Positions 22,404-26,950 of a stretch of 64,000 nucleotides of DNA are shown piece by piece; positions within the stretch are counted from its first letter, which is position 1; each line of letters begins with the position of its first letter. Source of the stretch: Pirellulales bacterium (GTDB taxonomy: Bacteria; Planctomycetota; Planctomycetia; Pirellulales; JACPPG01); the NCBI GenBank assembly GCA_036490175.1, contig DASXEJ010000238.1, positions 1-64,000 on the forward strand, read 5' to 3'. Both the position numbers and the translations under genes were made by a program. Below the pieces are notes generated by a model that saw only the letters and a program-made list of their open reading frames with translations, did not search any database and was not told where the DNA came from.

Positions 22404-22472
22404 GCGAGAATCGGCGGGGATAGGGCAGCGCGAAATTCAACAAAGATATAAAGCGCACGGTGCTTGCGCGAC

Positions 22473-22506
22473 GAGCCGTCAGCTTCGGTTGGCGGCTCTT
22501 TTTTTT
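22473..22506 (+). terminator. Rho-independent terminator of rpoD
   Basis: An 11-bp stem (with a G-T pair) around a TTCG loop is followed by eight T residues. It lies about 70 bases past the rpoD stop codon. Confidence 0.9.
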
Positions 22507-22553
22507 GCGCTCTACGACAGGCGGCGTGCATTGCGGCCAGAGGAACTTTTGCC

Positions 22554-22603
22554 GCCAAAATAAAACGACGGCCGCATGCGGCGGCCTGCCCCAGCCGCCG
22601 CAT
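22554..22603 (-). terminator. Candidate terminator of the PEP-CTERM locus
   Basis: A perfect 10-bp stem (22576-22585 with 22594-22603) and an 8-base loop are followed, on the minus strand, by a T-rich stretch about ten bases later. It lies about 175 bases past the fourth PEP-CTERM segment. The gap between stem and T-run lowers confidence. Confidence 0.4.
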
Positions 22604-22777
22604 ACGCCCGTTCCCCATGTCCCCGCATGATGTCCCCAGCAAGACACTCTTTCGGCGCCACTGGCGGGGAGCCTAAAAAGAGCCGCGCGCGGGGTCAATA
22701 GTAGGAAACCACCCCGACCAGGAATTAGAACGATGGCCATGTTGTCGTGAATGGTTCGTCGCTGGATCGCTTACCAG

Positions 22778-22897
22778 TTAGGTGTTCTCGAGATTGGTCC
22801 CCTCTTTGCGCGGGCCATGTCGGTATCGCGCGCCAAAAGCCATGCAGCAGCCAATGAATGTCAGCAGCAATGTCGACGGCTCGGGCACGGCCGTTAG
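22778..22897 (-). pseudogene. Orphan fourth PEP-CTERM anchor in frame behind a stop codon
   Basis: Directly after the TGA that ends the large PEP-CTERM frame, the same reading frame continues. It encodes a short linker, VPEPSTLLLTFIGCCMAFGA, and a basic tail ending in TNLENT and a TAA stop. This is a complete PEP-CTERM sorting signal (PEP motif, hydrophobic span, basic end) with no protein in front of it. It could be the remains of a fourth tandem gene. It could also be the normal end of the preceding frame, reached only if the TGA is read through or is a sequence error. The segment itself is seen directly; its history is inferred. Confidence 0.65.
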
Positions 22898-25800
22898 TCA
22901 AGCATCGCCCGCATGTTGGATACGCGATTGCCCACGGCAGGCCGGAGCGAGCTGGCGGAAGGCCCGCACGTTGCTAAGCATCAATCCCTGCCGTCGCAAT
23001 TTCCGCACGGCTGCGATTGCCACGACGCAAGCCCCACAAAACGCCAGTGCGATCGACGATGGCTCGGGAAGCATGATTTGGTTCGTGGCAAAATCCAAAT
23101 GCGCACCCGGGTCGATATTGGGATTGCCTCCCATCACGTTGTAGGTGTCGCCACCGATGGCGATGAAAGTGCCCGCCGGATTAGGAATGGCGATATTCCC
23201 CGTTGCGACAATTTGGGCGAGCGGAATGTCAAGCACACCATTAATGAACGTATTCGCCAGAGGGGGCTGGTCCAAAAAAGTAAACGGAAATGGCCCAATC
23301 CCAGCGGTAATGGACATCGTGTCTCCTATGGTGCCATTTGGCGGCCCAAAACTAAGCGAGAGCGGTCGAAACAGGTAGCCAGTAGCACCGACGTTGTTGG
23401 TGGGACCGAGGGTGTAGACGCCGCTGCCGTCGGCGGCGGGGTTCGTAGTTACGACGCCGTCGTCGCCATTGCTGTCAATCGCACCCATCAGGGTGCCGGT
23501 GCCGCTGCTATAAAACCAACTGTCCTGATAAAGGGCCCTGACACCAGCCGTGCCGAGCGTGGCATTCGTGGGTGGTCCGCCATTGGTAGCGACCGAGTTC
23601 TGAATAAACGACGACTGCACGGTTTGGATGTCGCTAGCAGAGGTGCGCTTGAGTGGTCCGCCACCTCCACCCTCAAAGGTCAGGCCCTGGACGAAAAGCT
23701 GGACGTCTGACCCCGCCGACACGTCGGCGGCCGTCACTTGTACGCCAATCGTGAAGACTTTTGCGCCGGCCAATGCCGTAGTGTTCGTAGCCATGACGAC
23801 GAGCTTGGCTGCTTGGCTGCTATCGGCAACCGTGAGAGCTATTACGACCCCGACGACAATCGCTCCGGCGATCACGCGGGCGCCTCCAAAGTGCCTGATC
23901 GTCGGACAATAACGACGTCTAACCCAGCACTCTCCGAACAGCGCGAGCGCGGCCAGCGCGGCGAGAGCAAACGTCGACGGTTCGGGAACCGGCGCGACTG
24001 AAGGGACGATCGACATCAAGAAAATCCCATTTTGTCCATAGACCTGAGCCAGGATCGTCCTCGCTCCGGTGACGGGATCAACTCGAAAGATACTCGGAGA
24101 GCCGCTGAAACCGGTGACGATCAGATCACCGTCGGATTCCATTTTGATAGAGCCAATAGCAGTATAGGCGGTGTCGAACGCAGGACCCGTTCCCAAGTAC
24201 TGGTTAGGTGCGATGAATCCAGAAAGCGGCATGCTAAGCCCGGTGGCTGGATCGTACGTGCTTACAAGACCGTTAGCAGTATTATTCATTGCATACACGA
24301 GCGAACCGCTTGGTTGCAGAGCGAATACGGTATATGCGTCGATGGGACTTAAAGTCGGAGTGGCAACTCCGGTCGTAAGATTAACGCTATAAAGACCGCC
24401 ATTTGATCCTGCGGCAACGAAGACGTTGCCAGAAGGACTTTCAGCTATGCCGAAAACTGGACCCGAAACTGGCAGGTTGAACGTTCCGCTTGTAAGTACT
24501 GTCGTCGCAAGTGGACTTCCAGAAGAGGCATCAAACTCCGTAATCCTCGCCGATAGATTGCCGATCAACGGCGGGATGCCTTCCCCCACCAAAATATTTC
24601 CATTCGCGCTCATGGCGATACTTTCTGGATAGGCGAGGTTGCCTACCAAGACAGTGCGATTCCCCGTCGAGGCATCGATCCGGATTAGCTCGCCGGTGGA
24701 CGGATTTCCGGACGTCGCGCTTGGGATTACGGAAAAGATGTCTCCTTGTGCATCCGTGGTCATAGCGATGACCGCCTGCAGCGATGGTCCCGTGCCGTGA
24801 GAGTCGTCGGCGAGAATCGTACGAACGCCGGTCGTGGGATCGATGCGATAGAGCGTACCGCTATCGGTCTCAAGCGCCACGATGTCTCCGGCACTGAGTG
24901 TCGCGGCATGAACTTGCGCCGCACCAAGTGATGTCAGCGCGGTGCAAATGATTGCGCCGACTGATACGAAACGAGCGTCAACCATCGACAGGTTCACCGC
25001 GCGGCGACGACGAAATGCGATCCATGCCGTAGTGACGCCACAAAGTGCCAGGATCCAGGTCGCAGGCTCGGGTACCAGTGCCCCCGGCACGGTCAAGCTG
25101 AATACCGTGCCAGCGCCAAAGACGCCGCCGCCTGACGTTGTGCCGTATAGCGTGTCGCCGACAAGAGTCAAACCACCTTGTGGGTACGCGCCATCGCTGT
25201 TGACAAAAGAGTGCTCGATGCGGAAATCGGAGCCATCGAGATTTACCGAAAAGATGTTGCCATACTCTAAAGCTGGGCCGCCATAATACGTTGTTCCATA
25301 AAGCCGCGATCCGACGAGCGTTAGGCCGGCACCAGGGTTCGCTCCGTCAGGGCCTGTGCCCGAGAAGGAGTACAGCGACTGGATGTTCGATCCGTCGAGG
25401 TTCATCGAAAAAAGCGCGCCGTTCGCATTGCCTGGGAAGGACAGTCCAGCGGGGGCGACTCCATAGAAGTTCGAACCGGCGATCGTCAGATTGAATGTCG
25501 CGGCAAACAAATTGACGCCCAAAGCGGCAATGTCGCTGGAAACCGATCCGCCGGAAAAGTCATGGACCGTGTGATAGTTCGATCCGTCGGCGTTTATGGA
25601 ATTGAGCGTCGCGATGTTGGAATGAGCGACGCCGCTTTGTATAGAGAATGCGCCCGGCAAAGGGCCTCCAAGCAGTGTCGATCCGATGGAAAGGGCGCCC
25701 GACTTATTGCCGTTGTCGAAGTCGTCATCGAAGCTGTGAATGTTCTGATAGTTTGAGCCATTGGCATTGATGGAAAATACGGTCCCGTAGCCATAGCCCC

Positions 25801-26290
25801 GATTAACAACACCGACGTCAGTGCTGGTGACGCCATAAAGTGTCGAACCAATCGCGCTAAGTCCCGTCAGCGGAGTCGATCCGGGTAGCGCGCCGAAGGA
25901 GTATAGATTGTTAAAGCTCGAGCCATCCGTGCTCAGGGAGTAGATCGTCCCTTCGCCGGCCGGCCCGCCGGCCTGGGTTGTGCCATAGAGTGTCGAACCG
26001 ATGGCAACCAGGTTCGTATTGGGAGTTTTTCCTCCAATACTGCCGCCGGTGAAGCTGTAGAGGCTTTGGAAATCGTCAGCGCGTGCCGGCGCAAGCCCAG
26101 AGAATTGGGTCGCCGTCAGCAGCACGGCGCAAAGCAGGCTGGCGACTCGACGGGGTATCGAGCGCATGCCGCGCAAATCAATTAGCGATGCACAGTCCGC
26201 GCCGACTTTGTTCCCAACTCGCGCGCGCCCATTGCCCAATCGCGAAACGTGACCACACGATTGACCGACGAAACTGACTAAACATGACAT
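22898..26290 (-). CDS. Triple PEP-CTERM fusion: three exported, exosortase-sorted proteins in one frame
   Basis: This is one 1,130-residue open frame. Cassette 1 (1-435) has a signal peptide near 43-71, about eight repeats ending in GTVFSL/GTIYSL (the choice-of-anchor type known from Verrucomicrobia), then VPEP at 406-409, a hydrophobic span and RRRR. Cassette 2 (436-793) restarts with a signal peptide ending QVHAA, a YRIDPTTG-type propeller-like region, VPEP at 768-771, a span and RRR. Cassette 3 (about 806-1102) has a signal-like hydrophobic start, a unique domain, LPEP at 1074-1077, a span and RKLRR. PEP-CTERM anchors are cut by exosortase in the inner membrane. The ATG at 26290 has GAGGA 8 bases upstream. 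The order could be three fused genes, a true polyprotein, or lost stop codons. No exosortase gene is in the window. Confidence 0.8.
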   Translation of the reverse strand: MSCLVSFVGQSCGHVSRLGNGRARVGNKVGADCASLIDLRGMRSIPRRVASLLCAVLLTATQFSGLAPARADDFQSLYSFTGGSIGGKTPNTNLVAIGSTLYGTTQAGGPAGEGTIYSLSTDGSSFNNLYSFGALPGSTPLTGLSAIGSTLYGVTSTDVGVVNRGYGYGTVFSINANGSNYQNIHSFDDDFDNGNKSGALSIGSTLLGGPLPGAFSIQSGVAHSNIATLNSINADGSNYHTVHDFSGGSVSSDIAALGVNLFAATFNLTIAGSNFYGVAPAGLSFPGNANGALFSMNLDGSNIQSLYSFSGTGPDGANPGAGLTLVGSRLYGTTYYGGPALEYGNIFSVNLDGSDFRIEHSFVNSDGAYPQGGLTLVGDTLYGTTSGGGVFGAGTVFSLTVPGALVPEPATWILALCGVTTAWIAFRRRRAVNLSMVDARFVSVGAIICTALTSLGAAQVHAATLSAGDIVALETDSGTLYRIDPTTGVRTILADDSHGTGPSLQAVIAMTTDAQGDIFSVIPSATSGNPSTGELIRIDASTGNRTVLVGNLAYPESIAMSANGNILVGEGIPPLIGNLSARITEFDASSGSPLATTVLTSGTFNLPVSGPVFGIAESPSGNVFVAAGSNGGLYSVNLTTGVATPTLSPIDAYTVFALQPSGSLVYAMNNTANGLVSTYDPATGLSMPLSGFIAPNQYLGTGPAFDTAYTAIGSIKMESDGDLIVTGFSGSPSIFRVDPVTGARTILAQVYGQNGIFLMSIVPSVAPVPEPSTFALAALAALALFGECWVRRRYCPTIRHFGGARVIAGAIVVGVVIALTVADSSQAAKLVVMATNTTALAGAKVFTIGVQVTAADVSAGSDVQLFVQGLTFEGGGGGPLKRTSASDIQTVQSSFIQNSVATNGGPPTNATLGTAGVRALYQDSWFYSSGTGTLMGAIDSNGDDGVVTTNPAADGSGVYTLGPTNNVGATGYLFRPLSLSFGPPNGTIGDTMSITAGIGPFPFTFLDQPPLANTFINGVLDIPLAQIVATGNIAIPNPAGTFIAIGGDTYNVMGGNPNIDPGAHLDFATNQIMLPEPSSIALAFCGACVVAIAAVRKLRRQGLMLSNVRAFRQLAPACRGQSRIQHAGDA
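23873..23887 (-). promoter_or_regulatory. Internal ribosome binding site and GTG start inside the PEP-CTERM frame
   Basis: Within the large frame, GGAGG (23887-23883) stands exactly 7 bases before an in-frame GTG (23875-23873), which begins the hydrophobic export-like segment of cassette 3. This spacing is ideal for independent translation of the third protein. It supports the view that cassette 3 was, or still is, a separate gene. Confidence 0.55.
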
Positions 26291-26588
26291 GGTATAAGTC
26301 CTCTTTTATGCCTCGATTTTTCCCTAGTTGCCGGTAATCCCGGCCGGCTAGAGCCATCGGCCCGTGACGCTTTGTCGAGGGGGCGATGGCTGTGCCGGCA
26401 ACCGGCCTGCGCATGAGCGCGAATACGAAAACGATGAAAGAAATCAATAACCACGCGAACATGATCAGATAATCCTCAGGAATCTTGGCCGCGCGACCGT
26501 AAACGTCACGCGGCTGCGGTACTGGATTCACGCCGTGGGCCGAGCGAAATAACGCCAGACCGACAAGCGCAAAAAAAGAGACGGTCAC
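26178..26588 (-). CDS. Possible small membrane protein upstream of the PEP-CTERM frame
   Basis: A possible 136-residue frame starting with GTG at 26588. It has two hydrophobic segments, at about 3-18 and 41-59 (YLIMFAWLLISFIVFVF), followed by a basic stretch. It overlaps the start of the PEP-CTERM frame by 113 bases in another phase. There is no clear ribosome binding site and no family match, and the last third looks non-coding. It may be a short gene truncated by a frameshift, or chance. Confidence 0.25.
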   Translation of the reverse strand: MTVSFFALVGLALFRSAHGVNPVPQPRDVYGRAAKIPEDYLIMFAWLLISFIVFVFALMRRPVAGTAIAPSTKRHGPMALAGRDYRQLGKNRGIKEDLYHVMFSQFRRSIVWSRFAIGQWARASWEQSRRGLCIAN

Positions 26589-26688
26589 TAGGTCGCCCAG
26601 CGAGCCCTTGTGCCGTCGAATAGAATTTAAATCACTAGCCGCCCCGACGTGGTGTCAGCAGCGGAGCGCCTCTTCTCCGCTATCGCGG

Positions 26689-26718
26689 ATTATAGTGGTA
26701 CTGACAATCGCGTGTCAA
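26689..26718 (-). promoter_or_regulatory. Consensus sigma-70 promoter of the PEP-CTERM locus
   Basis: On the minus strand TTGACA (26718-26713) and TATAAT (26694-26689), both perfect, are 18 bases apart. It is the best promoter match in the window, and it points to the PEP-CTERM frame about 390 bases downstream and to the possible small gene before it. Confidence 0.75.
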
Positions 26719-26882
26719 GTAAAATTCCGCGTATTGTGCGATGATAGTGGCGCGGACCGTTCGGCGGGCGATTGACGGAACGCGCAAGTAGGGGTGGAAA
26801 ACCACCATTCAATCTTGCTTTATGTTCATAGCGTAGGTGGTCGCGATACGTGTGGCGACTCGGCGGCAGGAAACGCTTGTGG

Positions 26883-26912
26883 TTAGACCATATTCCGGTG
26901 TCTATCTATATT
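26883..26912 (+). promoter_or_regulatory. Candidate promoter of the ethanolamine permease gene
   Basis: TTAGAC and TATATT are 18 bases apart, about 38 bases before the TTG start codon. Together with the leftward promoter at 26689-26718 it makes the 26589-26950 gap a divergent control region with no gene in it. Confidence 0.45.
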
Positions 26913-26950
26913 AAGCCGGCCGATTGGCCGATCCGCTCTGGGAGAGTTCC

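Follow-up and report, generated by a model that had tools for sequence, protein, structure and literature searches.

The window analysed here is a 64,000-nucleotide stretch (positions 1 to 64,000 of contig DASXEJ010000238.1, assembly GCA_036490175.1) from a Pirellulales bacterium. It contains one open reading frame in which several complete PEP-CTERM units, each with a predicted signal peptide, a body and a tail, follow one another without interruption. In known PEP-CTERM proteins, 87% of the tails lie within 10 residues of the C-terminus, and tails far from it may be non-functional (Haft et al., 2006; PMC1569441). None of the three tails in the window frame is at the extreme C-terminus, the stop lying 724, 362 and 56 codons beyond tails 1, 2 and 3, respectively. 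The locus raises the question put by the first-pass annotation, namely whether such a frame encodes a membrane-threaded polyprotein that is cut at each signal and each anchor, or represents three genes whose stop codons were lost.

The features of the frame are collected in Table 1. The frame had been described as unbroken over its 1,130 codons, and it is indeed open from the ATG at 26290, which lies upstream of the unit 1 signal peptide and has a GAGGA-type ribosome binding site (RBS), to the TGA at 22898. The PEP motifs, previously placed at residues 406, 768 and 1074, were found at residues 407-409, 769-771 and 1075-1077, at most one residue away, and behind each, as claimed, come a hydrophobic helix and then a basic cluster (RRRR, RRR and RKLRR). 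The export-like segment ascribed to each unit was recovered at residues 42-71, 436-462 and 806-828, with ends of the A-x-A type (ARA, VHA and QAA); signal peptides were called from hydropathy and A-x-A by eye. The suggested check with PEP-CTERM profiles gave the same picture, PF07589 and TIGR02595 both matching tails within the window frame, and the genome scan for PEP-CTERM listed window tails at 25004 and 23927.

Table 1. Features of the three-unit PEP-CTERM frame and of the tail that follows it (window coordinates)
Feature	Coordinates	Strand	Evidence
Three-unit PEP-CTERM ORF, 1,130 codons, single frame	22898-26290	-	Open from ATG 26290 to TGA 22898
Unit 1 signal peptide (MRSIPRR...APARA)	26078-26167	-	Hydropathy, A-x-A by eye
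Unit 1 body, GloVer tandem-repeat protein	25073-26077	-	TIGR03803, E=1e-34
PEP-CTERM tail 1 (PEPATWILALCGVTTAWIAFRRRR)	25001-25072	-	TIGR02595, PF07589
Unit 2 signal peptide (MVDARF...QVHA)	24905-24985	-	Own ATG 24985, GGTGA upstream
Unit 2 body, beta-propeller-like	23987-24904	-	Weak PQQ_2/Str_synth matches
PEP-CTERM tail 2 (PEPSTFALAALAALALFGECWVRRR)	23912-23986	-	PF07589
Linker 2 (YCPTIRHFGGAR), in frame; DNA has the ancestral GGAGG RBS of the unit 3 family	23876-23911	-	Paralogues L040, L045
Unit 3 signal peptide (VIAGAIVVGVVIALTVADSSQAA), begins at GTG 23875	23807-23875	-	
Unit 3 body, family without Pfam match	23069-23806	-	Paralogues in own genome and genus
PEP-CTERM tail 3 (PEPSSIALAFCGACVVAIAAVRKLRR)	22991-23068	-	
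Fourth PEP-CTERM tail (AVPEPSTLLLTFIGCCMAFGARYRHGPRK), bodiless, same frame after one TGA	22778-22897	-	

Several paralogues of the unit 3 family were found in the window genome; AlphaFold modelled unit 3 poorly (mean pLDDT 58.9). The 3′ extension behind tail 3 showed no repeat copies in the window genome or in the G000-G004 loci compared. The fourth tail is probably the remnant of a deleted unit, such that the array would once have held a fourth unit.

A profile scan of the window genome listed about 148 PEP-CTERM matches, and three further two-tail open frames were found in this genome (L021, L022 and L023), while the same genus adds another multi-tail frame (L041). L021 and L041 both lack an ATG or GTG in the stretch from the first tail to the following signal peptide, indicating that the second unit could hardly be made except through read-through; joins without start codons were also seen elsewhere in the order. 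In L023 (2957-5281), the two-tail frame contains in its middle the debris of a different gene, in which a signal peptide runs into sequence that looks frameshifted. This debris and the tail-only remnant of the window indicate that PEP-CTERM arrays decay as well as grow. Tandem PEP-CTERM genes split by a single in-frame stop were common (for example L034, L037, L047, L064, L071). In a pentapeptide-repeat protein (L057, 29-3409, minus strand), 131 codons that include no signal peptide separate the PEP tail from the stop, a plain stop-loss extension.

The distribution of the architecture was followed with a profile of the tail-linker-signal-peptide join, built from five joins and then from 22, with which whole genomes of the order and of the phylum were searched. 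This census of the Planctomycetota gave at least 47 ORFs with at least 95 tail-to-signal hinges in 31 genomes or records; of these, at least 44 ORFs have 2-10 full tails, spread over 29 genomes or records that include complete ones. The figures are lower bounds because 17 to 31 candidates were scored per genome. A plus-strand match in L094 was spurious and was taken out of the census; the internal match in L059 is spurious too. In-frame stops over the hinges of the selected ORFs are zero by construction and were not used as evidence. The largest arrays hold 10 (L061), 8 (L094) and 7 (L065) tails, and frames with 10, 8, 7, 6, 5 and 4 units occur among L061, L094, L065, L063, L095, L064, L080, L090 and L096. 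Where the contig extends far enough, the inspected arrays open with a Met-started signal peptide (L064, L065, L080). One genome (G031) carries at least eight multi-unit frames with about 43 tails (L061, L062, L063, L064, L094, L095 and L096 among its loci).

The usual hinge reads PEP-helix-RRRR-signal peptide, with a median of 7.5 residues from the basic cluster to the next hydrophobic core. This cluster seems to have two roles, closing the tail on the cytoplasmic side and giving the following signal peptide its positively charged start. By script count, no ATG or GTG lay between helix and core in 54 of 96 hinges. Within an array the units can be homologous, as are the FGE-like units of L065 and the similar ones of L080, or different, L061 for instance combining Laminin_G-like, F5/8-like and other units; enzymes occur among them, such as a sulfatase (L085), a GDSL hydrolase (L081) and the FGE-like units of L065. 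The sulfatase, with its PEP-CTERM tail, is unit 1 of a two-unit frame (L085, 7586-11311, minus strand) in G473, which belongs to another class of the phylum. PEP-CTERM units resembling FGE-sulfatase (SUMF1-like) were seen in L065, L080, L091, L092 and L093, with tandem expansion in two different families.

A three-unit frame of 1,432 codons was found in Lacipirellula limnantheis I41 (NZ_CP036339.1). Frames of this type are rare in that strain, with one multi-tail frame among its best 150 PEP-CTERM matches. Orthologues of the three-unit frame were sought with a search that reads through stops, so that the absence of stops at their hinges is informative. Single-frame orthologues were obtained in ten further genomes (G150, G210, G222, G142, G027, G042, G075, G162, G050 and G119), and both hinges were seen in 11 of 11 species from 7 genera, L. 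limnantheis included, the second hinge of G050 and G119 lying at the edge of the stretch compared. Identity was 23-65% over the hinges and mostly 40-82% over the bodies (30% for unit A of G162). The PEP motif and the basic cluster are kept in all orthologues, as is the hydrophobic core, and in nearly all an A-x-A-like site immediately precedes the conserved beginning of the following unit. In L. limnantheis, hinge 1 contains no ATG, GTG or TTG from the helix to past the predicted cleavage site. The conservation of this frame is the strongest evidence for a polyprotein class. Its presence in many genomes and its conservation within one orthologous group show that the architecture is not a chance occurrence.

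Selection on the hinges was estimated from duplicated units. Over 48 codons of hinge, L065 gave dN/dS ratios of 0.09-0.25 and G054 mostly 0.2-0.6; ratios as high as 0.74 came from pairs that include one hinge displaced by an indel. The low ratios indicate that purifying selection acts on the hinge as protein. An exosortase was found above the TIGR02602 cut-off in 12 of 12 genomes tested, the window genome included (G000:C171, E=1.5e-42).

Taken at roughly two chances in three (about 0.65), our main reading is that the multi-unit PEP-CTERM frames encode a membrane-threaded polyprotein that would be cut by signal peptidase and exosortase. In the window, one message frame would then code for three exosortase substrates in series. 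Sec export of each unit would be directed by its own signal peptide; the PEP-CTERM helix would go back into the membrane, leaving the basic cluster and the short linker in the cytoplasm, and the following signal peptide, a few residues on, would cross outward again. Cleavage would fall to signal peptidase I behind every A-x-A and to exosortase at every PEP helix, and the products would be three released surface proteins and a short two-helix hairpin left in the membrane. Translation through the joins, this topology, both cleavages and the equal yield of the units proposed by the first-pass annotation are predictions. We also consider it probable that Planctomycetota make surface polyproteins that are under selection and run to ten units or more; a single basic cluster would end one sorting tail on the cytoplasmic side and also begin the next signal peptide, and the cuts of exosortase and signal peptidase would alternate along the chain. 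Such arrays may have evolved from tandem genes, often one in-frame stop apart, through loss of the stop and subsequent loss of the internal starts, and recombination between similar hinges could add units in frame.

The other reading of the first-pass annotation was lost stop codons. As a rival explanation, tandem PEP-CTERM genes would have fused recently through stop loss, and no polyprotein function would be under selection; units 2 and 3 would still be made from their own ATG and GTG starts, read-through being tolerated since the signals thread correctly. Join 1 contains an ATG with GGTGA upstream and linker 2 has GGAGG seven bases before the GTG, an arrangement resembling that upstream of stand-alone unit 3 paralogues (L040, L045); the unit 3 linker matches the 5′ region of these paralogues. 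The frequent tandem genes one stop apart and the long extension of L057 point in the same direction, and so does the neighbourhood of the locus. The order rpoD, site, APC transporter and ammonia-lyase-like gene is common to the window, G001 and G003; in G001 the interval from rpoD to the APC transporter is free of PEP-CTERM genes, in G003 it contains a single one, which codes for an unrelated pentapeptide-repeat protein, and no orthologues of the window array were found in the sister species at the same locus. Three separate genes in relatives, which would have spoken against the polyprotein, were not found at this site, since G001 and G003 lack the array; the fused form is absent there as well. 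Across the species of the genus, this site (window 22404-26923; L205, L206) holds no PEP-CTERM gene, one or several. However, stop loss without selection leaves unexplained the arrays of 4-10 units with mostly start-less joins, the 11-species orthologue group, and the start-less joins of L021 and L041, which come from the window genome and its genus, and we regard it as unlikely. The window array itself is lineage-specific, and the fusion looks young. Because join 2 keeps the ancestral RBS and GTG of the unit 3 family, the fusion probably arose through stop loss, and units 2 and 3 may partly be made by internal initiation too. The polyprotein reading is well supported for the gene class, by arrays of up to 10 units, fused orthologues in 11 species and many joins without starts, while in the window both readings merge.

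An uncut multi-pass protein, in which the tail and signal helices are mere membrane hairpins tethering a string of outer domains, could also be read from these frames, every hinge being a ready-made helical hairpin. However, hairpins of this kind do not account for the PEP motif and basic cluster in all orthologues and the A-x-A-like end in nearly all of them, although the helix sequence drifts, nor for the presence of exosortase and for last tails that are ordinary PEP-CTERM tails; we consider an uncut chain very improbable. An assembly or sequencing error that deleted the stops of the window might be suspected in an assembly of 393 contigs, but the signal peptides at both window joins are clean and in frame, and the same architecture was found at other loci and in complete or near-complete genomes (L081, L082, L083, L084, L106). 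The cases in complete genomes and large contigs rule out assembly error as a general cause, and for the window it is scarcely credible.

The polyprotein reading can be set beside several known systems. In viral envelope polyproteins and in Bradyrhizobium FbcH (cytochrome b/c1), signal peptidase cuts internal signals. The arrays resemble these in giving serial products from one chain with internal signals cut on the far side of the membrane, and differ in that exosortase is the proposed second cutter, the products are cellular surface proteins and there are up to 10 units. With ordinary PEP-CTERM/exosortase proteins they share the tail, the type of signal peptide and an exosortase in the genome; there the tail is near the C-terminus, whereas in the arrays tails are internal and repeated. 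In Haloferax volcanii, the archaeosortase ArtA cuts a central tripartite sorting signal of HVO_0405, which is a fusion of two formerly independent genes (PMC7157517). This case is alike in its fused genes and in an internal sorting signal cut by an exosortase-like enzyme (PMC7157517), but it concerns one internal signal in one archaeal strain and a domain fusion rather than serial units of signal peptide and tail. MXAN_5598 of Myxococcus xanthus carries an internal MYXO-CTERM, attributed to gene fusion and with processing proposed (PMC11980579). It likewise has an internal sorting tag, but the protease family and the tag are different, the case is single, and an outer-membrane barrel with OmpA domains lies downstream. 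In the open-licence literature searched, no description of serial PEP-CTERM unit arrays was found, nor anything that combined PEP-CTERM or exosortase with polyprotein.

Polyproteins are usually associated with viruses and are, to our knowledge, rare in bacteria. If these frames do form a conserved bacterial class, exosortase would be shown to cut internal signals, surface proteins would be delivered in a fixed ratio, and the poorly known exosortase reaction could be read from one precursor. The idea is already open to test, a conserved example being present in the cultured L. limnantheis I41. It would also follow that certain giant proteins annotated as PEP-CTERM may be several distinct proteins strung together.
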